Shown: positions 7,962 through 45,546 of the stretch, piece by piece | Layout of the letters: the number at the start of each line of letters is the position of its first letter | Position numbering within the stretch: the first letter of the stretch is position 1 | DNA from: Lacimicrobium alkaliphilum | GTDB taxonomy: Bacteria; Pseudomonadota; Gammaproteobacteria; Enterobacterales; Alteromonadaceae | Assembly (NCBI RefSeq): GCF_002591895.1 | Contig: NZ_NISX01000007.1 | Coordinates: 124,001 to 188,000 of the forward strand | Direction: 5' to 3' | DNA length: 64,000 bases | Translations under genes and position numbers: made by a program | Notes under the pieces: generated by a model | Database searches by the model: none | What the model was told of the DNA's origin: nothing | Seen by the model: the letters and a program-made list of their open reading frames with translations, nothing else

Positions 7962-9026
7962 TTACTGAAACGTAACCTGCATAACGCCACCTTTGTATAA
8001 GCCGAGATAAAGCTGTTGCTGGTGTATGACCATACTGAACACGCCACCAAAGAGGTCATTATCCGGATGCTGATAGGACTCCCAGCTCTGTCCGCCATCT
8101 TCACTTATTTCCACAATCAGCGACTGAGGATCCTCAAAATTCTTATTCCAGCCGGCGGTGTAGAGTATGTCTTTATTATCCGGATCGAGAACCAGGTCAA
8201 AATAAAACCGCGAGTTGTCGTTGGTATTCAGTGCCTGCCAGGTTTCACCATTATCACTACTTTTGATGATACCTCCCTCCCCTGATACAAACAGGGTATG
8301 AGACGAATCCGGAGCAAAAACGATACCTTTTACTGTACTTGGCACAGAGAGCAACTCGTCTATGTCAGGAAACGCCTCATAAGTCATATTGTCTGTACGG
8401 TAGTGCATCAACAGAGGGTTTTCTATTGCTCCCTGCCCACCGTACCAGATATCAACACCGTTGCTGTTAACCGTAAGTGCTGACATCCCCGTAGCAAATC
8501 CATTCCAGCTGCCGGCCAATAATTGCCAGTTACGGCCGAAATCCTCTGATACCGCTAACACGTTATAGCCTACGCCATACAGCTTATCCTGATGATACTG
8601 CATGCGTCTGATTGGCTCGCTCAGCCCTTGCGATTGCTGATCAGTGCCACCGAAATCACTCTGCGGTATTTGCCAGGTTTGCCCGCTATCAGTGCTTTCA
8701 GCCAGAAAGAATTTGGCGTCAATCTTATAACTTACCAATAGCCGTGTGTCGTCCACGATGGCCAGATCCATCACTTCCCAGTTCTGCTCAGTAAGCCGCT
8801 GCCATTGTCCTTCCTGCTGAGAAACATACAGCCCCTGATCTGTGCCGGCATAAAGCTGCTGCGGTGTACTGATAAGACGATGAATGATATGCCCGTCCAG
8901 GCCCTGTGAAGTAAATTCAGGTGTGGGGTCCGGCTCAGGAATGGATGCTTTCCCGTCCTCACTGCTGTTGCAAGCAGCCAGAAACAAGATGCTGACAATA
9001 AGGGAAATGACTTTTACTGCTGACAT
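7962..9026 (-). CDS. Beta-propeller lipoprotein with BNR/photosystem-II-assembly-factor-like repeats
   Basis: A lipoprotein of 354 residues. The lipobox LFLAAC lies at the end of a signal peptide starting MSAVKVISLIV, followed by a Pro/Glu-rich linker and a propeller. Asp-box-like repeats are visible: SEDFGRNWQLL, SSDNGETWQAL, SEDGGQSWESY and STDSGQTWQIP. Such repeats occur in sialidase-like and Ycf48-like propellers. No catalytic sialidase residues are evident, so a binding or scaffold role is more likely. I chose the ATG at 9026 because AAGGAG sits 8 bases before it; a GTG three codons upstream lies directly on the ribosome site. The gene stands alone beside the S9 peptidase. Confidence 0.7.
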   Translation of the reverse strand: MSAVKVISLIVSILFLAACNSSEDGKASIPEPDPTPEFTSQGLDGHIIHRLISTPQQLYAGTDQGLYVSQQEGQWQRLTEQNWEVMDLAIVDDTRLLVSYKIDAKFFLAESTDSGQTWQIPQSDFGGTDQQSQGLSEPIRRMQYHQDKLYGVGYNVLAVSEDFGRNWQLLAGSWNGFATGMSALTVNSNGVDIWYGGQGAIENPLLMHYRTDNMTYEAFPDIDELLSVPSTVKGIVFAPDSSHTLFVSGEGGIIKSSDNGETWQALNTNDNSRFYFDLVLDPDNKDILYTAGWNKNFEDPQSLIVEISEDGGQSWESYQHPDNDLFGGVFSMVIHQQQLYLGLYKGGVMQVTFQ

Positions 9027-35124: not shown

Positions 35125-35185
35125 AGGTTTCTACCTGTTAACTGTACAAGAGCATTCACTATGCAGTACTGCGGGGCGGCTGTAT

Positions 35186-35199
35186 GTACGCTGGATAAC
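35186..35199 (-). promoter_or_regulatory. Degenerate regulon palindrome and promoter of the lmo0937-type gene
   Basis: GTACGCTGGATAAC: the left half matches the regulon motif and equals that of the DUF4398 promoter (GTACGCTGG), while the right half is degenerate. A -10-like CATAGT on the minus strand (35158-35163) is centred 32 bp from it. Confidence 0.45.
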
Positions 35200-35224
35200 A
35201 CAACAAACAAATACTGTGCCATGG

Positions 35225-35238
35225 GTGCGCTGGCGCAC
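35225..35238 (+). promoter_or_regulatory. Regulon palindrome upstream of the BON lipoprotein
   Basis: GTGCGCTGGCGCAC is a perfect inverted repeat (6-bp arms, 2-bp centre). A -10-like TAAGCT at 35261-35266 is centred 32 bp downstream. Confidence 0.65.
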
Positions 35239-35302
35239 AGATCTGTGTTTCTGACAGGCTTAAGCTGATAGTCCAGTTAATCAAACAAGTGAGAATCGGA
35301 TC

Positions 35303-35614
35303 ATGAAAACACGTAATATCTACGCGGTATTTTTTCTTAGCCTGCTGAGCCTGACATTGCTGGGTTGCGGCGCAACTGAAACCAGTGAAAGTACCGGTGA
35401 ATATGTTGATGACACCGTTATTACCACCAAAGTAAAAGCCGCTATATTTAATAACGACGCGCTTGAATCGGCCGAAATTAATGTTGAAACCTTCAAAGGC
35501 GAAGTACAACTAAGCGGTTTCGTCAGTTCAACAGCCGACATTAATACCGCCGTGCGACTGGCCCGCAAGGTTACCGGCGTGAAGTCGGTAGAAAATAAGA
35601 TGCAGATAAAATAA
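35303..35614 (+). CDS. BON-domain lipoprotein (OsmY-like)
   Basis: A 103-residue periplasmic or outer-membrane lipoprotein. The lipobox is LTLLGCGA (Cys near residue 19) and the remainder is a single BON domain (VDDTVITTKVKAAIFNNDAL, VETFKGEVQLSGFV, ARKVTGVKSVENKMQI). BON domains bind phospholipid and occur in osmotic-shock proteins such as OsmY and DolP. It carries the perfect copy of the regional palindrome upstream and so heads the proposed Crp/Fnr regulon. A Crp/Fnr gene follows 132 bases later with its own promoter. Confidence 0.88.
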   Translation: MKTRNIYAVFFLSLLSLTLLGCGATETSESTGEYVDDTVITTKVKAAIFNNDALESAEINVETFKGEVQLSGFVSSTADINTAVRLARKVTGVKSVENKMQIK

Positions 35615-35644
35615 TGGCGGAAGCCTGAGCGTGTTGATTTTTAT

Positions 35645-35658
35645 GTGCGGTACCGTAC
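35645..35658 (+). promoter_or_regulatory. Regulon palindrome upstream of the first Crp/Fnr gene
   Basis: GTGCGGTACCGTAC, extended to TGTGCGGTACCGTACA (35644-35659). TATACT at 35680-35685 is centred 31 bp downstream. Confidence 0.6.
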
Positions 35659-35746
35659 AGAGCGCGCCCTATACTCAGCTATACTGACAGGCTCTTTGCA
35701 CACAGGAATACCCGTCACCCTGGATAATAGGTATAAGGAAAAGGTT

Positions 35747-36511
35747 ATGCCCAAACTGGCATCACAGCAATGCGTTGATCCTAAGCTGCATAAACCAACG
35801 GAAAATCAGTTACTCAAAGCCCTCGATGCAGATGTGCAGGAGCGGCTTTTTCCACATCTGGAGCTGGTCGAGTTGCCATTGGGCAAAGCACTGTATGAAT
35901 CGGGCGATGTACTGCGCCATGTCTATTTCCCCACCGATTGCATCGTGTCACTGCTCTACGTGATGGAAAATGGCGCGTCAGCGGAAATATCCGTGGTCGG
36001 CCACGATGGTATGATTGGCGTCGCCCTGATTATGGGCGGCGAGAGTACCACCAGCCGCGCCATAGTACAAAGTGCCGGTTATGCCTCTCGTTTAGCTGGC
36101 CAACGCATGAAAAGCGAATTTAACCGCCACGGGGATATGCTGCATTTAATGCTGCGCTACTCACAGGCGTTGATCACCCAAATGGCCCAGACCGCAGTCT
36201 GCAACCGCCATCACAGTATCGAGCAGCAACTGTGTCGCTGGTTGTTGCTGTCGCTGGATCGCCTTAAAGACAATCATCTGGTGATGACTCAGGAGCTGAT
36301 TGCCAACATGCTGGGGGTGCGCCGCGAAGGCGTAACGGAAGCTGCAGGCCGTCTGCACAGACAAGGTGTGATTGACTATAGCCGCGGCCATATTATTGTC
36401 ACAGACAGGGCCAGGCTGGAGCAACTGAGTTGCGAATGCTACAGCGTCGTCAAAGCCGAAACAGATCGTCTGTTGCCGCTGTCACGTCATCACCCCCATT
36501 CCGTGTCATAA
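35747..36511 (+). CDS. Crp/Fnr-family transcriptional regulator, paralogue 1
   Basis: A 254-residue regulator with an N-terminal cyclic-nucleotide-binding-like barrel (about 20-145; YFPTDCIVSLLYVMENGASA and EISVVGHDGMIGVALIMGGE) and a C-terminal winged helix (about 150-235; LIANMLGVRREGVTEAAGRL). The barrel lacks the RxS phosphate motif of cAMP-binding Crp and has no FNR-type N-terminal Cys cluster, so the ligand is unknown. I chose the ATG at 35747 (AAGG about 6 bases before), which aligns with paralogue 2; an open GTG-led extension runs upstream through the promoter. It is very similar to the protein at 37668-38432. Probably self-regulated through the palindrome at 35645. Confidence 0.85.
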   Translation: MPKLASQQCVDPKLHKPTENQLLKALDADVQERLFPHLELVELPLGKALYESGDVLRHVYFPTDCIVSLLYVMENGASAEISVVGHDGMIGVALIMGGESTTSRAIVQSAGYASRLAGQRMKSEFNRHGDMLHLMLRYSQALITQMAQTAVCNRHHSIEQQLCRWLLLSLDRLKDNHLVMTQELIANMLGVRREGVTEAAGRLHRQGVIDYSRGHIIVTDRARLEQLSCECYSVVKAETDRLLPLSRHHPHSVS

Positions 36512-36516
36512 CGCAC
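36503..36516 (+). promoter_or_regulatory. Degenerate regulon palindrome upstream of the second Crp/Fnr gene
   Basis: GTGTCATAACGCAC: the right half (ACGCACAG) matches the regulon motif, the left half is degenerate. It overlaps the preceding stop codon. TATATT at 36539-36544 is centred exactly 32 bp downstream. Confidence 0.45.
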
Positions 36517-36613
36517 AGAAACCGCTAGCTGGCGGCGTTATATTGACCCATCAAGGCTGCACAGCACCTGCCTTGTTTATCAAAGCAATAAGCCAGTGCT
36601 AAAGGCTTTTTCT

Positions 36614-37366
36614 ATGTCTGCTCAAACGGCGTCAGTGATTACCAATCATTTACTGCAATTATTAAGTCCGGACGAACGCCAGCTCTTGCTGCAACATTGT
36701 AAGGTGGTAAAACTGCAGTTCGCCGATGTCCTTTGTGAGCCAAACCAACCCTACCGCTATCTGTATTTTCCCCTTAGTGGTTTTATTTCGCTGGTCACCA
36801 GGCTGGACGGTCATAAACCGCTGGAGATGGGCTTAATCGGCAATGAAGGCATGCTCGGCGTGACCCTGGCACTGGGTATCAGCACCGCGCCGATGCAGGC
36901 GGTGGTGCAGGGCAAAGGGACCGCATGGCGCATTGCTATTGCCGATTTGAAGCAATGTTTACTGCACTGCCCCCAATTGCAACGGGTGCTACAACAATAT
37001 CTGTTTGTACAATTGGCTCAGTTGGCCCAGAGTGCAGCCTGTGCTCACTTTCATGAACTCTCCCCGCGTCTGGCGCGCTGGTTACTGATGAGCGACGATC
37101 GTGCACACAGCGGTCAGTTTTACCTTACCCACCAGTTTCTGGCGGGTATGCTCGGCGTGCGTCGTAGCGGCATAACCGTTGCTGCGGGTATTATGCAACA
37201 GCAACAACTTATCTGTTACAGCAGGGGCGTGGTCAGCATACTGGATCGCCAGGCGTTGCAGGGTATTACCTGTGAATGCTATCAGGCGGGATTGGACGAC
37301 TACCGGAATATGCTCGGAGAGCCACAAGCTGACACTCAGACAATCAGCGCACAAAGTAAGTCATAA
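36614..37366 (+). CDS. Crp/Fnr-family transcriptional regulator, divergent member
   Basis: A 250-residue regulator with the same two-domain layout as its neighbours: a sensor barrel at about 20-140 (YRYLYFPLSGFISLVTRLDG, LIGNEGMLGVTLALG) and a winged helix at about 150-235 (FLAGMLGVRRSGITVAAGIM). It is clearly more distant from paralogues 1 and 2 than they are from each other. The ATG at 36614 has AAAGG upstream; a GTG six codons earlier is also in frame. It sits between the two near-duplicates. Ligand and targets are unknown. Confidence 0.83.
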   Translation: MSAQTASVITNHLLQLLSPDERQLLLQHCKVVKLQFADVLCEPNQPYRYLYFPLSGFISLVTRLDGHKPLEMGLIGNEGMLGVTLALGISTAPMQAVVQGKGTAWRIAIADLKQCLLHCPQLQRVLQQYLFVQLAQLAQSAACAHFHELSPRLARWLLMSDDRAHSGQFYLTHQFLAGMLGVRRSGITVAAGIMQQQQLICYSRGVVSILDRQALQGITCECYQAGLDDYRNMLGEPQADTQTISAQSKS

Positions 37367-37591
37367 AGGAATCTGAATTGCAGCCTGCTGTACAGGCAGA
37401 TCCCAGGTCAGGAAAATACATCAGCAAAGGTAAAAAACCGGCGAGTTAAGATTGAAATATTATAGGTTGTGGTGCACCTAAGTGACGCTGTTAATTCAGC
37501 AAAAAGCATTAAGGGCGCCCGGCCATGGGATTAACGGCGTGACATCAGTGAAAACTATGATGCGATAAATGTGCAGCGGATGATACTATAT

Positions 37592-37605
37592 GTGCGTTAT
37601 CGCAC
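37592..37605 (+). promoter_or_regulatory. Regulon palindrome upstream of the third Crp/Fnr gene
   Basis: GTGCGTTATCGCAC, extended to TGTGCGTTATCGCACA (37591-37606). AATACT at 37628-37633 is centred 32 bp downstream. The leader after it (CTCTTTGCACACAG) is shared with paralogue 1. Confidence 0.65.
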
Positions 37606-37667
37606 AGAGCGTATTCGTTGCTTACCTAATACTGACAATCTCTTTGCACACAGATAAGGATAAGGTT

Positions 37668-38432
37668 ATGCCTAAATTGGCATCACAGCAGTGCATTGAT
37701 CCCAAACAGCATCAGCCAACGGAAAATCAGTTACTAAAAGCCCTCTGTGCAGAAGTGCAGGAAAGGCTTTTCCCACACCTGGAACTGGTTGAGATGCCAC
37801 TGGGCAAAGTACTGCATGAGTCAGGCGAAGTATTGCGTTATGTCTATTTTCCCACCGATTGCATCGTGTCACTGCTCTATGTGATGGAAAATGGCGCATC
37901 GGCGGAAATATCCGTGGTCGGCCACGATGGTATGATTGGTATAGCTCTGCTTATGGGCGGCGAGAGCACCACCAGCCGCGCTTTAGTACAAAGTGCCGGT
38001 TATGCCTATCGGTTACCTGGTCAGCGCATCAAATCCGAGTTTAACCGCCACGGAGAATTGCTGCATTTAATGTTGCGCTACTCACAGGCACTGATCACTC
38101 AAATGGCCCAGACCGCGGTCTGTAACCGCCACCACAGTATAGACCAGCAGCTCTGCCGCTGGTTATTACTGTCTTTGGACAGGCTAAAGGATAATCATCT
38201 GGTGATGACCCAGGAGCTGATTGCCAACATGCTGGGGGTGCGCCGCGAAGGGGTAACCGAAGCCGCAGGCCGGTTACATAAACAGGGCGTGATTGACTAC
38301 AGCCGTGGCCATATTATTGTCACTGACAGGGCGAAGCTGGAGCGACTGAGCTGCGAATGCTATGGCGTGGTCAAGTCCGAAACAGATCGTCTGCTGCCAT
38401 TATCACGACACAGGACTGAATCCGTGGCGTAG
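37668..38432 (+). CDS. Crp/Fnr-family transcriptional regulator, paralogue 2
   Basis: A 254-residue protein nearly identical in sequence and length to that at 35747-36511 (both start MPKLASQQC and end with RLLPLSRH plus a few residues). The differences are conservative and scattered through the protein, and the winged-helix recognition region LIANMLGVRREGVTEAAGRL is identical, so both should bind the same DNA site. The ATG at 37668 follows AAGG. The duplication also includes the promoter and leader. No classical cAMP or Fe-S ligands are visible. Confidence 0.85.
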   Translation: MPKLASQQCIDPKQHQPTENQLLKALCAEVQERLFPHLELVEMPLGKVLHESGEVLRYVYFPTDCIVSLLYVMENGASAEISVVGHDGMIGIALLMGGESTTSRALVQSAGYAYRLPGQRIKSEFNRHGELLHLMLRYSQALITQMAQTAVCNRHHSIDQQLCRWLLLSLDRLKDNHLVMTQELIANMLGVRREGVTEAAGRLHKQGVIDYSRGHIIVTDRAKLERLSCECYGVVKSETDRLLPLSRHRTESVA

Positions 38433-38512
38433 CGCACCTGTGCACAAAAACCGGTTTTAGCGGTGTTGAGTTACCAGAAATACCCCCGCAGAGCCAAAAA
38501 CCGAAACGCCAC

Positions 38513-38818
38513 TCAAACAAATGTACGAATAATGTAAGCGGTAAACACAGTGCGCAGCCAGGCTACAACGGCTGTCAGACGTTTGCGCGTGGTGGTGTTT
38601 TTGGAGTCAGTGTTGTTGGAAGGGGTGTTGTCCTGGTGATATAACCACCAACCAAGCAACGCGCCGCTGAGGGTTGCCACGACCAGCGCCGCCGGAGAGC
38701 TGAGCCTGTTGTGCACCGCTTTGGTGACTGCGCGGGTCTGCGCACCCAACTGTAGGCGCTGTTGCGGTAACTGTTGCGCCAGTTGAGCAATCTCTCGATT
38801 GAGTTGTCGGGGCTGCAT
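38513..38818 (-). CDS. YqjK-like small protein
   Basis: A 101-residue protein with an N-terminal helix rich in Gln/Arg (REIAQLAQQLPQQRLQLGAQ), one membrane segment (AALVVATLSGALLGWWLYHQ) and a basic C-terminus. The QQRLxLxAxxR-like start and its position after YqjD- and YqjE-like genes match E. coli YqjK of the yqjCDEK operon. Function is unknown. The ATG lies 1 base after the stop of the YqjE-like gene, indicating coupling. Homology is judged from short patterns and context. Confidence 0.65.
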   Translation of the reverse strand: MQPRQLNREIAQLAQQLPQQRLQLGAQTRAVTKAVHNRLSSPAALVVATLSGALLGWWLYHQDNTPSNNTDSKNTTTRKRLTAVVAWLRTVFTAYIIRTFV

Positions 38819-38819
38819 A

Positions 38820-39242
38820 TCATCCGACCTCTCTGGTCTGTTCTGAACCTGCCAGACGCAGACTCTGCATGGTTGCCGGGAAACGTAACAGGCTGCTGTA
38901 ATAGCGGCAGCGGCGCAGCACAAACCACAAGCCCGACAGATTAACCACCATCGCCAGCCCCAGAGCCTGACCTGCCGACAACAGGCTATGCTGTGCCAGT
39001 ATGATAATTTGTGCCAGTGCGCCAAACCACACAGTCAGGGCCAGCAAGCCTGCAATCAGACCAAATACCAGCAACGCAACCATGCTGTTTGCCACCCGCT
39101 GACCCTCGAGCGTCAGCAGTTGCAGTTGGTCACAGGCCAGCGCTCTGACTTGCTGCCACCATACAACCAACTCAGCCGTTACCTCTGGTGGTACTGAAGA
39201 AACACCCGCATCAGCGGGTGTTGTAATAGAATCACTTGGCAT
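38820..39242 (-). CDS. YqjE-like / phage-holin-superfamily membrane protein
   Basis: A 140-residue inner-membrane protein with two strong membrane helices (SMVALLVFGLIAGLLALTVW and ALGLAMVVNLSGLWFVLRRC) after an amphipathic N-terminus. The family is the holin-X/YqjE superfamily; despite that name, this is a chromosomal stress-type protein and not a phage lysis gene. I chose the ATG at 39242; a GTG three codons upstream also lies inside the YqjD-like gene, whose end it overlaps. Middle gene of the trio. Confidence 0.75.
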   Translation of the reverse strand: MPSDSITTPADAGVSSVPPEVTAELVVWWQQVRALACDQLQLLTLEGQRVANSMVALLVFGLIAGLLALTVWFGALAQIIILAQHSLLSAGQALGLAMVVNLSGLWFVLRRCRYYSSLLRFPATMQSLRLAGSEQTREVG

Positions 39243-39591
39243 TATGCCCACCGGGGCGATGGCTTAACCACCAGCTAAAAAGCATACCGCCAGCCACTGC
39301 GACGCCAAGCGACATCAACGGGTGGCTGCGTACCTGATCGCGGGTGCCTTCGGTTACTTGCTGCTGCAGATGCTGCAACTGTATGCCTTTTTTTGAAATG
39401 GCCTCGGCGGCATGATTCACACCACTTGCCATTTTATCCACCGTGTTATGTGCACTGGCGGTCACCTGTTTGATGGCCGGTGAACCCGCTTCCGCGACAT
39501 TGTCGATAGCACGATGTATACTGCCCGACGCGGAATCCACTCCACTGTTGAATTCTTTTTTAGCCGCATTTGTTTCTGTTGGCTTTTCCAT
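39232..39591 (-). CDS. YqjD/ElaB-like (DUF883) ribosome-associated membrane protein
   Basis: A 119-residue protein with a long helical, Ala-rich region and a C-terminal tail anchor (VRSHPLMSLGVAVAGGMLFS then WWLSHR), the hallmark of the DUF883 YqjD/ElaB family. E. coli members sit in the inner membrane in stationary phase and bind ribosomes. The ATG at 39591 follows GGAG by 5 bases. It is the first gene of the yqjD-E-K-like operon and has the regulon palindrome at 39671-39684. Confidence 0.82.
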   Translation of the reverse strand: MEKPTETNAAKKEFNSGVDSASGSIHRAIDNVAEAGSPAIKQVTASAHNTVDKMASGVNHAAEAISKKGIQLQHLQQQVTEGTRDQVRSHPLMSLGVAVAGGMLFSWWLSHRPGGHNAK

Positions 39592-39670
39592 AATAACTCC
39601 GATTGTATGCAACAGCGGCAAGAGTACCGCTGTCTTGGCTATAGAATGCCTGGTTCGGTCGGCCAGGTCG

Positions 39671-39684
39671 GTGCGCCAGCGCGC
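39671..39684 (-). promoter_or_regulatory. Regulon palindrome upstream of the YqjDEK-like operon
   Basis: GTGCGCCAGCGCGC; on the minus strand CATTCT (39643-39648) is centred 32 bp downstream as a -10. Confidence 0.6.
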
Positions 39685-40683
39685 TTAACGCTTATCCGCC
39701 AACTCAACGGCGTTGGCAATAATTACTTCCACCCGCCGGTTTTGCTCCCGGCCATCGACTGTTGAGTTGCTGGCCATTGGTGTACTTTCACCCATACCGG
39801 TGACATCCAGACGACTGTCTGCTACGCCCTTTGCCTGCAAGAAAGTCTTCACCGTCTCCGCACGACGTTGCGACAGCAGCATGTTGGAAGCATCACTGCC
39901 AACATCGTCGGTATGGCCTTCAATCTGTGCCGTACGCTCAGGGTAAGCCATTAAGAATTTGGCCAGTTTTTGCAGATGATTACTGCTGCTGACTTTCAGA
40001 TTAGCCTTACCGGTATCGAATAACACATCCCCCAGAGTAACCACTAATCCTCTTTCCGTAGGTTTAGCATTGAGTTCATCCAGTTGTGTGCGTAATTCAG
40101 CAGCGGCAGCATCAGAGCTTTCAGCCTGTTGACGTGCAGAGCGGGCCTCAGAAAGTGCGCTTTGTTCACGGTTTTCAGCCAACATCGCCTGCCGTTTAGC
40201 CCGCGCTGAATCGATACGGGCATCACTGGCCTCTGCCTGAGCACTACTAGCCTGAGAGCGCGCCTGCTCGGCGTCACTACGGGCATCGCTGGCATCCGCA
40301 CGGGCCCTCTTCGCTTCCAGAGTGCGGGCGTTGAGTCTTACATCATCACGTTGCTGGCTCAGCGCATCCCGTTGAGACTCCAACAGGCGCGTTTGTGCCT
40401 GGGTGCTGGCCATCGCCACTTTACGCTCTGCCATCACCACCCGGTGACGGGTCAGTTGAGTGTTTTTATCCGGTTGTTCGGCCAGGATTACCGCCTGCTC
40501 GGCTTCTTTTATTGCCAGCGGAGCCAGTAGCGCCAGTTGCCTGTCGCCTTGAAGCTGTGTGAGTTGCTGGCGTACATCAGCAGCACCGTCGGGCATCTTC
40601 GGAGCACTGGCACAGGCGGTCACAAAGACAGCGGCAAAACCGATACTCAGCAATGATTTGCCAAAGGGTATTATGTGGTTCAT
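39685..40683 (-). CDS. OmpA-family lipoprotein with DUF4398 and coiled-coil region
   Basis: A 332-residue lipoprotein. The lipobox is FVTACA (Cys near 24). A DUF4398-like helical region (about 30-100) leads into a long Ala/Arg/Asp/Ser-rich helix with repeated SDARSDAEQARSQASSAQAE-type heptads (about 100-215), then an OmpA-like peptidoglycan-binding domain (about 222-325; LFDTGKANL, IEGHTDDVGSDASN, NRRVEVII). It may span the periplasm from the outer membrane to peptidoglycan. It overlaps the DUF4398 gene upstream by 4 bases. Confidence 0.85.
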   Translation of the reverse strand: MNHIIPFGKSLLSIGFAAVFVTACASAPKMPDGAADVRQQLTQLQGDRQLALLAPLAIKEAEQAVILAEQPDKNTQLTRHRVVMAERKVAMASTQAQTRLLESQRDALSQQRDDVRLNARTLEAKRARADASDARSDAEQARSQASSAQAEASDARIDSARAKRQAMLAENREQSALSEARSARQQAESSDAAAAELRTQLDELNAKPTERGLVVTLGDVLFDTGKANLKVSSSNHLQKLAKFLMAYPERTAQIEGHTDDVGSDASNMLLSQRRAETVKTFLQAKGVADSRLDVTGMGESTPMASNSTVDGREQNRRVEVIIANAVELADKR

Positions 40684-41111
40684 GGTCTTACTCCTGACAA
40701 GTTGCGTTGCACTTCCTGCTGTAATACATCAATGCTTTGTTGCATATCCTGATTAATGGCCTGAGCTTTTATCAGGTCGGCACGAGCCTGTGCCAGTTCG
40801 GCACTGGCCTGTGATTGCAGGGCCAGCCGCTGAGCCTGGAGCATATCCTTTGCTGTCACCGCATTGCGGGCAGCGGTCAACTCTGAGCGGGCAGCATTAA
40901 GTTCTGTACTGGTGTAACGAATAGTCTGTGATCTTTCGGCGTTGCCTATGGCGCGCTCAGCGGCGTCAAGTTCAGCAGATGGAGCGTTAAGAGAGCTGGC
41001 GCAGCCAGTCATCAGTACTGCAACAATGGCCAGCATCAAGCCTGGCTTCAGCAGCCGCTTGCTGAGCAAGGCGGGAATCATTGTTACCGGGGCGGCAATG
41101 AATGTTTTCAT
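40680..41111 (-). CDS. DUF4398 lipoprotein
   Basis: A 143-residue lipoprotein (VLMTGCASS, Cys near 37) whose remainder is a DUF4398 helical hairpin (ELDAAERAIGNAERSQTIRY, LNAARSELTAARNAVTAKDM). It is paralogous to the N-terminal region of the next gene, with which it overlaps by 4 bases. AGGAG precedes the ATG. Function is unknown; an envelope-stress role is suggested by the surrounding genes and the shared palindrome. Confidence 0.8.
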   Translation of the reverse strand: MKTFIAAPVTMIPALLSKRLLKPGLMLAIVAVLMTGCASSLNAPSAELDAAERAIGNAERSQTIRYTSTELNAARSELTAARNAVTAKDMLQAQRLALQSQASAELAQARADLIKAQAINQDMQQSIDVLQQEVQRNLSGVRP

Positions 41112-41186
41112 TAGAAACTCCTGATAGTCGGGGGCCGCAGAAACCTGCGCCCTGACTTACTATGTCCCAACGGCACAACGCTGTCG

Positions 41187-41200
41187 GTACGCTGGCGCGC
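41187..41200 (-). promoter_or_regulatory. Regulon palindrome upstream of the DUF4398-OmpA operon
   Basis: GTACGCTGGCGCGC; CATAGT on the minus strand (41159-41164) is centred 32 bp downstream. The same -10 and the same left half occur at the lmo0937-type gene. Confidence 0.6.
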
Positions 41201-41216
41201 ATAGCAGGAGCTTTTT

Positions 41217-41954
41217 TCAGAGCGAAGCGGGGGAGCATCCAGTGTGTTCTTTTTTACATCGATACATGGCCGTATCGGCATGATGGATCAGTTCCTGAGT
41301 ACTGTTGCCATCTGCCGGGAAGAGTGCCACACCAATGCTGGCTGACAAAGACACACTGCCACTCTTTATCTGATAGGGTTGTGCCAACAGATGTGCCATC
41401 TTGTTGACAAATGGCTTCACATCCTCTTTTTTGCTGATAGTGTTCAGCAGTAACAGAAACTCATCACCACCGTGGCGACTGATGGCGTCACTTTCACGAA
41501 TAGCGGAACGCAAGCGTGCGCTGACCAGTTGAAGCACCTCATCACCAGCCCCGTGGCCGAACTGATCATTGACGGGTTTAAAGTTATCCAGATCGACAAA
41601 CAACAGGGCAAACAGACTGTGTTGCCGTTTGGCGATACTGATAGCCTGCTGAATGCGATCCTGCATAATGCTGCGATTGAGGGTTTCGGTAAGTGCATCA
41701 CACTGACTGTCCCGCATCAGTTGCTGTAGCTCCATTCTGGCCTGTTGCAATGCCAGTAACAAACGCTTATTTTCCTGCTGCAATTGTTCGTTTTGCAGAC
41801 TCCAGATATCGCGCTGCAACATCACGTCACAGTTTATTCCATCACGCTGTGCCTGCTGACCATTGTGATCACTGTGACCGTTCTGACGATTGGCCCGCAG
41901 TTTTTGCATGGTGCTGCGCAGCTGAAACGGGTTAAAATCCTGAGGGTCTTTCAT
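41217..41954 (-). CDS. GGDEF diguanylate cyclase without sensor domain
   Basis: A 245-residue cytoplasmic protein. A coiled-coil N-terminus (about 45-82, LQNEQLQQENKRLLLALQQA) is followed by one GGDEF domain with an intact GGDEF motif at 162-166 and the RESD inhibitory site at 153-156, five residues before it, so c-di-GMP synthesis with product feedback is expected. There are no membrane segments or receiver domains, so its output is set by dimerisation and expression. It has the regional palindrome and a class II-like promoter. This links the Crp/Fnr block to c-di-GMP. Confidence 0.9.
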   Translation of the reverse strand: MKDPQDFNPFQLRSTMQKLRANRQNGHSDHNGQQAQRDGINCDVMLQRDIWSLQNEQLQQENKRLLLALQQARMELQQLMRDSQCDALTETLNRSIMQDRIQQAISIAKRQHSLFALLFVDLDNFKPVNDQFGHGAGDEVLQLVSARLRSAIRESDAISRHGGDEFLLLLNTISKKEDVKPFVNKMAHLLAQPYQIKSGSVSLSASIGVALFPADGNSTQELIHHADTAMYRCKKEHTGCSPASL

Positions 41955-42008
41955 AACAGGGCTCCTGTATTGAGACTATTAAGATATCCTGATATTGCTG
42001 CGACAAAT

Positions 42009-42022
42009 GTGCGATATCACAC
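42009..42022 (-). promoter_or_regulatory. Regulon palindrome upstream of the GGDEF gene
   Basis: GTGCGATATCACAC, extended to TGTGCGATATCACACA. TATCTT on the minus strand (41981-41986) is centred 32 bp downstream. Confidence 0.6.
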
Positions 42023-42067
42023 ATTAACGCAGGAAAATAACAGCCTGTTCACCAGTTTGCTCGCCTG

Positions 42068-42397
42068 CTAAGCAAGGTTGCACTGATCAAGAAAGGTTTT
42101 AACCTGTTTATCAGCCAGATGGCGGTCGATGTGATAGCGCTGTTGCACCAGACTACTCAGTTGTTGCTGATCACCGTCGCTTCTCAGTATTTCGGCTTCA
42201 CTGAGCTTGCCCCACTGACTTTTGGCAGCTTTAACCTGTTTCGGCCACTTTACTTTGCCACCAGCTGACGGCCCGGCCTGCTCCGTTTTAGCACTGGCTT
42301 CGGGTTTTATTGGCGTAGCTTCCATTTTATCGTCCATATCGGCCTTGTTCGCTTTGTCGAGTTTCACACCACGATTCTGTTCGCTGTACGTGTTCAT
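42068..42397 (-). CDS. CsbD-like stress protein with disordered N-terminus
   Basis: A 109-residue protein. The first half is charged and low in complexity (KADMDDKMEATPIKPEASAK). The second half matches the CsbD fold (WGKLSEAEILRSDGDQQQLS, LVQQRYHIDRHLADKQVKTF). CsbD proteins are abundant general-stress proteins of unknown action. AAGGAGG lies before the ATG, so high translation is expected. The regulon palindrome lies at 42481-42494. Confidence 0.75.
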   Translation of the reverse strand: MNTYSEQNRGVKLDKANKADMDDKMEATPIKPEASAKTEQAGPSAGGKVKWPKQVKAAKSQWGKLSEAEILRSDGDQQQLSSLVQQRYHIDRHLADKQVKTFLDQCNLA

Positions 42398-42731
42398 AAA
42401 AGACCTCCTTATAGGTTCCTTCAGTACAAGATTGCACTGACCGGTAGAACAAAGTCTGAACGATGGTCAAATCTGAGTCGGTGCGCCAACGCGCATAAGG
42501 GCAGTTAATGCACAATGGTTTGTACTGTTATTGTCGCAATATAGAGGTCAACCTGAAGCCGGGCACGACTGAGCCTGAGGTAACAACAGGGTTCACAGAA
42601 TCCGCCTTTATCCGGATTGCAGGCCATTCAAATCTGCTGCTCCAGGCAGATCGCGACAAAGCATACAGGCGACAATTGAACAAATTTGTTTTAATCTTCA
42701 CGCTATCGCTCTTTGTCCACAAGGCATGACT
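42398..42731. other. Intergenic region between divergent CsbD-like and DUF2891 genes
   Basis: 334 bases. The left part is the CsbD-like promoter with its palindrome. The right part (42500-42725) shows no supported gene; two short frames lack a ribosome site and family features. It presumably holds the DUF2891 promoter. Confidence 0.5.
42481..42494 (-). promoter_or_regulatory. Regulon palindrome upstream of the CsbD-like gene
   Basis: GTGCGCCAACGCGC; CAGACT on the minus strand (42453-42458) is centred 32 bp downstream. Confidence 0.55.
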
Positions 42732-43867: not shown

Positions 43868-44779
43868 CTAAAGATCAGATCGTTTTAACTGCACCTGCAA
43901 TGCCTCAACATGAGCGTGATAGTCGTCTGGCCGTGATTTTTTAAACTTCTCCAGATTTATCAACTTCCATTTCACCGATGGATAATGCGAAAAGTCATAT
44001 ATCGACCAGTTCGGCACCAGCCGGTTTACACTCAGCAGAAACTCCCTATCTGTATCATTCAGGCTTCCATTGACGAGCCGAATAAGCTGACTTCTGGCCG
44101 CCTCCATGTCCTCATAGGTAAAGGGCCGATCTGACATGCCGTTAAACTGATTGTCAAAAGCCACGCGTTGGTCAATATGGTTGGGGTTGAGCATCTCATG
44201 GGTTGGACGGTTGCTACAGATAAGGGCATAGATAACCCCTTCTTTTATCTCAGTTGAATAGCTGTGCTCTTGAAGCAGTAAGTGAACATCGAACAGGTCT
44301 CTGGGGTGCTGCCTGTCCAATGCCGCACAAATCTTACCCCCGTATAGCTGGGATAAGGGAACAACCTGTATATCGCAGAATGCATCAAAGTATTCCTGTG
44401 CAGCGTCACACAATGGCTGCACTGGGGCAGTACTCCCAAGCACGCCCCGGCCAATCATATTGACTTCGATTTTGACCTGCACATCGCCTTCTTCAACCAT
44501 AAGTTTGCAAACGTCCGTTTTGTGCGTGATCCTAATCGTTGGCCTCAAAGCAGTGATGTTGGCCTGTACTCTGGCAAGGGAATCGTTGATTGCGCTGATG
44601 CTTTCGTCCCTGTCCTGAATGGGTATATGGGTCAAGTCGATATCCACGGATAACCTTGGCATATCCAGCACAAATAAATTGATGGCTGTACCACCGTGTA
44701 GTGCGAAGCACTTTTCCTTCGCCACTTCGGGAATCACGTTTAGTAGCAGATTCACCTGCCGTAGATATTGCTCTCTCAT
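43868..44779 (-). CDS. abiEii: AbiEii-type nucleotidyltransferase toxin
   Basis: A 303-residue nucleotidyltransferase of the AbiEii/AbiGii family. The pocket motif CFALHGGTAINLF is followed by RLSVDIDLTHI (the metal-binding DxD), and then LYGGKICAALDRQHPRDLFDV in the middle domain (shown as two overlapping blocks: LYGGKICAALDRQ and HPRDLFDVH). In the AbiE system this protein is the toxin, arresting growth, and the pair can defend against phage. It overlaps the AbiEi gene by 4 bases and is translated after it, the usual order. Confidence 0.87.
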   Translation of the reverse strand: MREQYLRQVNLLLNVIPEVAKEKCFALHGGTAINLFVLDMPRLSVDIDLTHIPIQDRDESISAINDSLARVQANITALRPTIRITHKTDVCKLMVEEGDVQVKIEVNMIGRGVLGSTAPVQPLCDAAQEYFDAFCDIQVVPLSQLYGGKICAALDRQHPRDLFDVHLLLQEHSYSTEIKEGVIYALICSNRPTHEMLNPNHIDQRVAFDNQFNGMSDRPFTYEDMEAARSQLIRLVNGSLNDTDREFLLSVNRLVPNWSIYDFSHYPSVKWKLINLEKFKKSRPDDYHAHVEALQVQLKRSDL

Positions 44780-45546
44780 GTATGTGCTTCCAGTGCCTTC
44801 GGGACAGTGATCTGATATTTAGGGATATACACACCATCAGGCACTATCTGGCGTTTACCTTTGCCTAAATCGATGGAATCCAGGTTGAGATAGTTAACCC
44901 AACTGTGTCCGGCTTTTTCGGCCATGTACAGAAACAAGCGTTTCACTTTCACAGAGGTACAGGCTTCCAGTAGCGTCTGTACAGACTTAGGGCGTAGGTT
45001 GTTTAACCCTTCCATCAACTCAAACACTTCCAGTAGTGGCTGGCTTTCCGGTGCCAGATACAAGCACTCCATTACCGCTCTGGCAGGACTTGATAGCTTT
45101 ATCTGAAAGTCTTTGTAGCTGTATTCCGTCAGACCCAGCTCTGCTGGCAGGAATGAGGATGACTGGTATTCGACATGCAGTTTCCAGTCATGCTTTTTAA
45201 ACCACGATGGGAGTTGCTCCGACTGTGCGCCAAAGAGCTGGCAACGTTGCATGGATAGCTCTAGATAATGTGATTTGCCCAGCAGCGACAGCGCCGTTTT
45301 AGCCCCCGGATGTATGGACAGACCTAGCTGGGTTTGCAGGGTATAGATACCCCCTAGCTCATCAACGGCATCGCCGCTTCTGACCAATGCACCTCTTTCA
45401 AGCTGGGTAAACCAATTGCTTTTACGGTAGCGCTTTTGCAGCTCAGGGCTATAGCCTTGCTCTGTCAGCCACGCAGAGGTCAGTACAACGCCACGTGGCG
45501 TTGTTGACATCAACTGGTTTATTTTACTTCTATTTTCGGTACTCAT
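44776..45546 (-). CDS. abiEi: AbiEi-type antitoxin and transcriptional autorepressor
   Basis: A 256-residue protein with an N-terminal winged helix-turn-helix (about 10-60; GVVLTSAWLTEQGYSPELQK, RKSNWFTQLERGALV) and a larger C-terminal antitoxin domain, as in the AbiEi_3-type antitoxins. It should neutralise the AbiEii toxin as a type IV antitoxin and repress the operon. Two 15-bp palindromes lie at and upstream of its start. It ends overlapping abiEii by 4 bases. Confidence 0.83.
   Translation of the reverse strand: MSTENRSKINQLMSTTPRGVVLTSAWLTEQGYSPELQKRYRKSNWFTQLERGALVRSGDAVDELGGIYTLQTQLGLSIHPGAKTALSLLGKSHYLELSMQRCQLFGAQSEQLPSWFKKHDWKLHVEYQSSSFLPAELGLTEYSYKDFQIKLSSPARAVMECLYLAPESQPLLEVFELMEGLNNLRPKSVQTLLEACTSVKVKRLFLYMAEKAGHSWVNYLNLDSIDLGKGKRQIVPDGVYIPKYQITVPKALEAHT

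Follow-up and report, generated by a model that had tools for sequence, protein, structure and literature searches.

To our knowledge, many proteobacterial genes of the Crp/Fnr superfamily still lack an assigned binding site, signal or set of targets. Here, we consider a palindrome, TCTGTGCGCTAGCGCACAGA, and three Crp/Fnr regulator genes that lie among its copies in a stretch of 64,000 nucleotides from Lacimicrobium alkaliphilum (GCF_002591895.1, NZ_NISX01000007.1, positions 124,001-188,000, forward strand). This whole stretch is called the window throughout, and the genome to which it belongs amounts to 4.30 Mb. Among the closest described systems, CRP recognizes the operator TGTGA-N6-TCACA. 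FNR of Escherichia coli binds TTGAT-N4-ATCAA and carries the cysteines Cys-20, 23, 29 and 122, as stated in PMC4601167. A second source (PMC7349173) gives -41.5 as the usual class II position of FNR and names -11A and -7T as the two most important bases of the -10 element; these are the same letters that a preliminary description of the present locus had singled out in its promoters.

Two further systems resemble the present one in their cargo. The EcfG-dependent general stress response of alphaproteobacteria includes csbD, catalases and a PRC-barrel protein (PMC7083833, PMC6599016), and AlgU of pseudomonads drives BON-domain and CsbD-like proteins (PMC10651043). To this extent both regulons overlap with the targets found here. 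EcfG and AlgU are, however, alternative sigma factors with their own promoters, whereas here an activator apparently works at a sigma-70-like -10 element.

Very probably, the three regulators of the window belong to an unnamed Crp/Fnr subfamily that activates a general or envelope-stress regulon together with its own genes. This reading builds on what computation brings out directly: the sites themselves, their spacing from a -10-like hexamer, their conservation before homologous regulators and their co-occurrence with the regulator. With it, one Crp/Fnr subfamily gains a predicted operator, a promoter geometry and a recurrent set of targets, namely BON and PRC-barrel proteins, small membrane peptides and a giant cyclic-glucan-synthase-like enzyme, joined here by catalase and a diguanylate cyclase. 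This suggests that genes known elsewhere as the stress cargo of sigma factors are run here by an autoregulated activator. The pattern, seen in the source bacterium and many relatives, points to a widespread and apparently unnamed switch for envelope or general stress.

The preliminary description had reported nine palindromes at nine promoters. This observation is confirmed: each of the nine 14-mers occurs once in the window, at the noted coordinate and letter for letter (Table 1). For scoring, a symmetric 24-base-pair (bp) matrix (consensus GCTCTGTGCGCTAGCGCACAGAGC, 23.4 bits) was trained on the best upstream sites of 59 foreign regulator genes, with the window and its genome held out. The foreign set comprises 80 loci encoding relatives of the three window regulators, the best 80 of 586 confirmed, from Rheinheimera, Arsukibacterium, Alkalimonas, Pseudomonas, Nitrosomonas and others (31 of the 80 are labelled Pseudomonas, and kinship is ignored in the counts); the remaining 21 genes have no site above 9 bits and so fall outside the training. 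Among all positions of the window, the nine sites take ranks 1-8 and 10, and eight of them exceed 14 bits, a level reached by 0.1 positions in a shuffled 64 kb. Equal motif frequency in other DNA, named in the preliminary description as a reason to give up the idea, was not seen within the window, where no position outside 35.1-42.6 kb exceeds 10.0 bits. The best position beyond the cluster is an isolated site at 8395 (GTACGGTAGTGCAT, 10.0 bits). Taken on its own, the site at 35186, weakest of the nine, is no more than plausible; the DUF5670 gene in another genome of the same genus (G051) is preceded by a 12.8-bit site with the hexamer CATAGT (L163:6680).

Table 1. Palindromes and associated genes of the cluster, in window coordinates, with bits and ranks from the held-out 24-bp matrix.
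Feature	Coordinates	Strand	Details
Lmo0937-type membrane peptide (DUF5670), 48 aa	34978..35124	-	Pfam PF18919, 1.7e-15
Degenerate palindrome GTACGCTGGATAAC	35186..35199	-	Hexamer CATAGT 35158-35163; promoter of DUF5670 peptide; 8.6 bits, rank 10
Palindrome GTGCGCTGGCGCAC	35225..35238	+	Hexamer TAAGCT 35261-35266; 22.9 bits, rank 3
BON-domain protein	35303..35614	+	Pfam PF04972, 3e-20
Palindrome GTGCGGTACCGTAC	35645..35658	+	Hexamer TATACT 35680-35685; 28.8 bits, rank 2; presumed autoregulatory site of regulator A1
Crp/Fnr regulator, type A (A1)	35747..36511	+	HTH_Crp_2 and cNMP_binding; recognition helix GVRREGVTEA
Degenerate palindrome GTGTCATAACGCAC	36503..36516	+	Hexamer TATATT 36539-36544; promoter of regulator B; 15.5 bits, rank 8
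Crp/Fnr regulator, type B	36596..37366	+	HTH_Crp_2 and cNMP_binding; recognition helix GVRRSGITVA
Palindrome GTGCGTTATCGCAC	37592..37605	+	Hexamer AATACT 37628-37633; 29.3 bits, rank 1; presumed autoregulatory site of regulator A2
Crp/Fnr regulator, type A (A2)	37668..38432	+	HTH_Crp_2 and cNMP_binding
Small-protein operon ('YqjDEK-like' in the preliminary description)	38513..39591	-	Third open reading frame with sub-cut-off LptF_LptG match
Palindrome, + strand letters GTGCGCCAGCGCGC	39671..39684	-	Hexamer CATTCT 39643-39648; 16.3 bits, rank 7
Operon of DUF4398 protein (40680-41111) and OmpA-domain protein (39685-40683)	39685..41111	-	OmpA-domain protein with sub-cut-off DUF4398 match
Palindrome, + strand letters GTACGCTGGCGCGC	41187..41200	-	Hexamer CATAGT 41159-41164; 21.4 bits, rank 4
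GGDEF diguanylate cyclase	41217..41954	-	Pfam PF00990, 3e-45
Palindrome, + strand letters GTGCGATATCACAC	42009..42022	-	Hexamer TATCTT 41981-41986; 16.3 bits, rank 6
CsbD-like protein	42068..42397	-	Below Pfam cut-off, 24.4 of 40 bits
Palindrome, + strand letters GTGCGCCAACGCGC	42481..42494	-	Hexamer CAGACT 42453-42458; 19.1 bits, rank 5

The targets within the window are the DUF5670 peptide, the BON protein, the three regulators, the small-protein operon, the DUF4398/OmpA operon, the GGDEF cyclase and the CsbD-like protein. Pfam bears out the earlier labels BON, Crp/Fnr, DUF4398, GGDEF and lmo0937-type. Two labels proved weaker than first given: no Pfam family passes for the first two open reading frames (ORFs) of the operon called YqjDEK-like, and the CsbD-like protein lies below its Pfam cut-off.

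Each of the nine palindromes is followed on its gene-ward side by an xAxxxT hexamer that begins 21 or 22 bases past it, the two centres being 31-32 bp apart, and a hexamer of this form at this distance had been claimed correctly for all nine. If the hexamer is taken as -12 to -7, the centre of the palindrome falls at -40.5 to -41.5. This is the arrangement of a class II promoter, in which a predicted site centred near -41.5 takes the place of the -35 element and a -10 hexamer follows. The foreign loci allow the same spacing to be followed around sites of the strict class GT[GAT]CG-N4-CG[CTA]AC, 176 of 177 of which were used in both directions (352 orientations; one site lay too near an end). 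TANNNT starts at 21, 22 and 23 bases in 36, 58 and 13 orientations, against a background mean of 3.45 per offset (standard deviation 2.1, maximum 9; offsets 5-19 and 25-49). For YANNNT the counts at these offsets are 39, 97 and 32, so that hexamers beginning with C, as at several promoters of the window, genuinely belong to this set. When the strict sites of the 80 loci, the window and two further stretches (L016 and L017) are pooled, 152 of 187 have [TC]ANNNT or AATANT at 21-23 bases in one or both directions, with an ORF beyond it, versus some 18% expected from composition for the hexamer alone, a rough estimate. The hexamer peak of the foreign loci thus lends support to the class II geometry first suggested, with the palindrome near -41.5.

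Regulators that bind these sites but repress, or act both ways, with the hexamers forming part of a repressed promoter, make an improbable alternative. Many of the hexamers are weak (CANNNT), as repression would allow, but the hexamer keeps a distance of 21-23 bases and the palindrome covers the place of the -35 element, which fits activation, and -41.5 is the common activating position for FNR (PMC7349173).

In the activation scheme that we prefer, TCTGTGCGCTAGCGCACAGA would be the operator of the subfamily, three members of which are encoded inside the cluster itself. A regulator dimer would bind the operator centred near -41.5, over the place of the -35 element, and the bound dimer would contact RNA polymerase and activate xAxxxT -10 promoters in the class II manner. 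The regulators would activate their own genes (positive autoregulation), along with the genes of the BON, DUF4398-OmpA, CsbD-like and DUF5670 proteins and of the GGDEF cyclase in the window, and with those of Pmp3, catalase, PRC-barrel, transglutaminase and transglycosylase-associated proteins in a second cluster. Within this scheme, what we infer is the binding, the sense of the effect (activation, not repression) and the stress condition.

The palindrome also emerges when it is not asked for. A motif-free count covered all 5-bp inverted repeats with spacers of 0-12 in the DNA before the 80 foreign genes, 350 bp at most for each. GTGCG-N4-CGCAC ranks first (11 loci); TCTGT-N10-ACAGA (7 loci), formed by the outer arms of the palindrome, is second, and GTACG-N4-CGTAC (6 loci) is third. 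The family consensus has the core GTDCG-NTAN-CGHAC. The strict class occurs 52 times before 44 of the 80 foreign regulator genes, versus a mean of 0.2 and a maximum of 1 in 50 first-order shuffles. Across the entire 80 loci it is found 177 times, and any other rearrangement of the half-site letters reaches at most 82, this maximum sharing the GTGCG half. Of the 187 pooled strict sites, 87 lie outside called genes, DNA that makes up 9.8% of the total. Genes and targets in this analysis are simple longest-ORF calls, hence some targets are spurious.

All three regulators combine an N-terminal cNMP_binding with a C-terminal HTH_Crp_2 domain, both above the Pfam cut-off in each protein, and the own genome holds just these three family matches (E up to 0.001), all in the window. 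By their sequences they are not equivalent: two are of type A (89% identical to each other), whereas the third, of a divergent type B, has a different recognition helix and shares 31% identity with the first type A protein. A set of 136 family proteins from 87 loci, one further protein being dropped for an incomplete helix, contains 92 with a GVRRE-like helix (type A) and 44 without (type B), 34 of the latter with GVRRS. Genes of both types stand side by side in the window (35747-38432), and an adjacent pair is found in 35 of the 87 loci. Heterodimers or a division of labour between such neighbours are possible.

With the matrix, a site above 12 bits is found upstream of 66 of the 92 type A genes (49 of them strict), a partly circular count as most of these genes trained the matrix. 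For type B genes, which stand outside the training, the figure is 32 of 44, versus 161 of 2000 random windows from the same loci. Together with the strict sites before 44 of 80 homologous regulators, these counts support the autoregulation that had been proposed. In loci that hold no type B gene, such a site precedes 27 of 46 type A genes, so that a type A regulator alone is probably sufficient.

Judged by architecture, the regulators share with E. coli FNR and CRP at class II promoters the HTH_Crp_2 and cNMP_binding domains, the predicted fold, and a site centre near -41.5 upstream of xAxxxT (PMC7349173). The palindrome GTDCG-N4-CGHAC differs from the TGTGA-N6-TCACA of CRP and from the TTGAT-N4-ATCAA given for FNR in PMC4601167. 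The predicted fold of one type A protein (mean pLDDT, the predicted local distance difference test, 85.6) matches structures of CRP, GlxR and FNR. GlxR and Mycobacterium tuberculosis CRP, actinobacterial CRPs bound to cyclic AMP (cAMP), come closest, with target-normalised TM-scores of 0.72-0.80 in the top ten, but identity is about 18%, and one type A protein, when aligned with GlxR (chain 4cyd), has Ile and Thr in place of the Glu and Arg found in the GELSIFDPGPRTS stretch. In the phosphate-binding cassette, this Glu and Arg are the usual contacts of cAMP. Because they are replaced, cAMP is unlikely as the ligand of the type A regulator.

The curated models point the same way. The NCBIfam CRP equivalog lists only the type B protein of the three, at 15.9 of 266 bits, and the FNR model gives the type A proteins 16.6-16.8 of 228 bits, all far below the cut-offs; searches of NCBIfam and of PDB sequences with the regulators returned no close named relative. 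An FNR-like N-terminal cysteine cluster is missing in the aligned regulators, where only Cys9 (5 of 83) lies near the N-terminus, and the conserved cysteines 152, 163 (type A), 229 and 231 do not match the Cys-20/23/29/122 pattern of FNR. All 136 family members, the 44 of type B among them, have Cys152, His156 and C-x-C-Y at 229-232; the invariance of Cys152 is partly ascertained, one search peptide including it, and His156 and CxCY lie outside the peptides. This invariant Cys152/His156/Cys229-x-Cys231-Tyr set hints at metal or redox sensing. By operator, cofactor residues and curated models, the regulators are members of the Crp/Fnr superfamily that classify as neither CRP nor FNR.

A survey of 223 genomes of the class relates the motif to the regulator. 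A relative at E up to 1e-30 is encoded by 28 of the 223, and the 20-bp pattern TNNGTDCGNTANCGHACNNA is present in 18 of these 28 carriers (62 sites) versus 4 of 195 non-carriers (4 sites), three of the latter four sharing genus or family with a carrier; its reversed control is found in 3 of 28 and 20 of 195. This co-occurrence favours the resident Crp/Fnr proteins as candidates for the site, as had been suggested from the window. In the family of the source, 25 of 59 genomes have some match to the regulator, 11 of them a strong one (E below 1e-40, a chosen cut).

Against this background, it is very unlikely that the sites are degenerate operators of the ordinary global CRP/Vfr or FNR. The sites of CRP do have the same 16-bp register as the motif. 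The position at -41.5 is likewise the usual one of FNR at class II promoters (PMC7349173). The motif nevertheless needs CG at half-site positions 4-5 and is without TGTGA and TTGAT, it is nearly absent from class genomes that lack the subfamily, and it precedes the subfamily's own genes. Ordinary CRP or FNR sites were rejected on the NCBIfam scores, the matrix consensus and the co-occurrence with the subfamily.

The preliminary description had pictured a compact local regulon. In the window, the sites do cluster next to the regulators, but a further cluster of ten sites above 11 bits lies on contig C1 at 107,222-124,882 (L016:10223 to L017:7883). Eight of these sites are linked to genes, most of them of a stress type, and precede, in order, an exo/endonuclease-phosphatase gene, a small ORF with a PRC-barrel gene, a transglutaminase gene, Pmp3, a large catalase, a transglycosylase-associated protein, a second PRC-barrel gene and a ClpP-like gene. 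At seven of the eight, [TC]ANNNT follows at a distance of 22 bases; for Pmp3, GAATAT follows at 23. The C1 cluster would be controlled in trans by the window regulators.

In G051 the window cluster is syntenic and holds a single type A gene. Counterparts exist there for seven of the nine sites, namely those of DUF5670, BON, regulator A, regulator B, the place beyond the OmpA gene, DUF4398 and CsbD. A separate 6-kb stretch of that genome (L164) carries sites before relatives of the C1 transglutaminase and of one PRC-barrel gene; relatives of the other C1 genes tested were not found within it.

For the foreign loci, 105 of 168 target ORFs were scanned, after 38 regulator genes, 17 giant ORFs, 7 ORFs of the own genome and 1 antisense ORF had been dropped. 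They match 38 Pfam families in all, with 13 BON, 7 PRC-barrel, 6 GGDEF, 6 DUF3309, 4 DUF4398, 3 DUF883 and 1 CsbD proteins. Among 105 control genes from the same loci there are 1 BON, 3 GGDEF and 2 CsbD, and PRC, DUF3309, DUF4398 and DUF883 are not among the matches listed for controls (the best 25 of 147 families, by falling member number). BON, PRC, DUF3309, DUF4398 and DUF883 proteins are enriched as targets over controls. Giant ORFs of more than 2,500 amino acids preceded by a site occur in 17 loci; the one scanned (L026) belongs to GH94, and we take it to be a cyclic-glucan-synthase-like enzyme.

Sites are also found elsewhere in the own genome. One at C2:86919 (L019) has 21.4 bits and the hexamer TACCCT, but no clear gene; exact sites score 10.0 bits in L022 (C15) and below 8 bits in L020 (C45) and L021 (C10). 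Ownership of the palindrome by another transcription factor, such as a TetR-type desaturase repressor, is hardly credible. It would find support in a near-identical 14-mer at C16:3979 (L168:2480), which in the own genome has a TetR-family gene on one side and a fatty acid desaturase gene on the other; this 14-mer recurs with unchanged flanks in G051 (L166:2447). This site, however, has poor outer arms (12.8 bits), and the main sites co-occur with and precede Crp/Fnr genes across many genera. C16:3979 probably serves as the operator of the neighbouring TetR protein, a false positive for the regulon. Chance palindromes picked by eye have next to no probability: the bare pattern is no commoner in the genome as a whole than its reversed control, but the held-out matrix ranks the sites top in the window with shuffles giving 0.1 per 64 kb above 14 bits, the palindrome is conserved across genera, and the foreign upstream sites (44 of 80 vs 0.2), the matrix ranks and the class co-occurrence contradict chance.

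In the 4.30 Mb, the bare palindrome has 8 exact and 81 matches at up to one mismatch, with 149 for its reversed control, hence no over-representation; whole-genome counts of the bare 14-bp form are uninformative, the reversed control being equal or commoner in many genomes. For this reason we rely on clustering, outer arms and spacing, and it is the clustering that departs from chance: 4 of the 8 exact and 12 of the 81 near matches fall inside the two clusters, 0.6% of the genome (binomial 8e-8 and 8e-14, generous values as the second cluster came from the same hits). Several results weigh against activation of such a regulon by the subfamily. In the family of the source, a looser 14-bp pattern averages 2.8 in the 11 strong carriers versus 1.25 in the 48 others, a modest difference (p = 0.008), and its reversed control is often equally frequent. 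The Fisher probability of the class co-occurrence (5.5e-16, or 3.6e-15 without the own genome) ignores kinship, and the strict 20-bp form is missing in 10 of the 28 carriers. At the foreign loci, the strict site is missing in the 330 bp upstream of 36 of 80 regulator genes, most gaps being in Pseudomonas (present in 11 of 31 Pseudomonas-labelled loci versus 33 of 49 others), and it precedes only 2 of 44 type B genes. The C1 cluster encodes no such regulator, and two of its ten sites (L017:4757 and L017:7883) are without a convincing hexamer or gene. As to content, the envelope-stress families of the preliminary description recur in other genomes, but its cyclic di-GMP part is less clear, with GGDEF only twofold over controls (6 of 105 versus 3 of 105) and no site above 8 bits at the cyclase gene in G051; CsbD shows no enrichment (1 of 105 targets versus 2 of 105 controls).

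The regulator is also present on plasmids. A relative (E up to 1e-30) is found in 68 plasmid records, 15 of them at 60-80% identity, and pKLC102, a conjugative element of Pseudomonas aeruginosa, is among the 68. Its Crp/Fnr gene is 79% identical to a window regulator over 90% of the query, and it also has a GH94 giant gene and five sites of 13-20 bits (NC_019202.1, L174). It differs as a mobile element with one such regulator in the examined stretch, whereas the window has three. Two of its five sites lie in the gap upstream of a desaturase gene. The open-access literature yielded nothing linking the pKLC102 regulator to the motif. Open-access PubMed Central literature gave no description of the motif or regulon among the matches listed, although an earlier description is possible; five long motif strings had no occurrence there, and short strings gave only chance matches among the matches listed. 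Contigs of metagenome-assembled genomes labelled Desulfovibrionaceae, Phycisphaerales and Klebsiella (L065, L074, L054, L076) encode the regulator downstream of a strict or near site, which may reflect horizontal transfer or mis-binning.

A bolder and rather doubtful extension would be a widespread general stress response that is based on an activator and stands apart from alternative sigma factors. It would be run by a paired A and B subfamily, perhaps as A-B heterodimers, that senses metal, redox or oxidative state through a Cys152/His156/Cys229/Cys231 site linking the C-terminal helix with the hinge that follows the dimerisation helix, and it would have moved between species on plasmids or conjugative elements together with its target genes.

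Just beyond the cluster in the window, two adjacent minus-strand ORFs at 43868-45546 resemble a toxin-antitoxin pair of the AbiEi/AbiEii kind.

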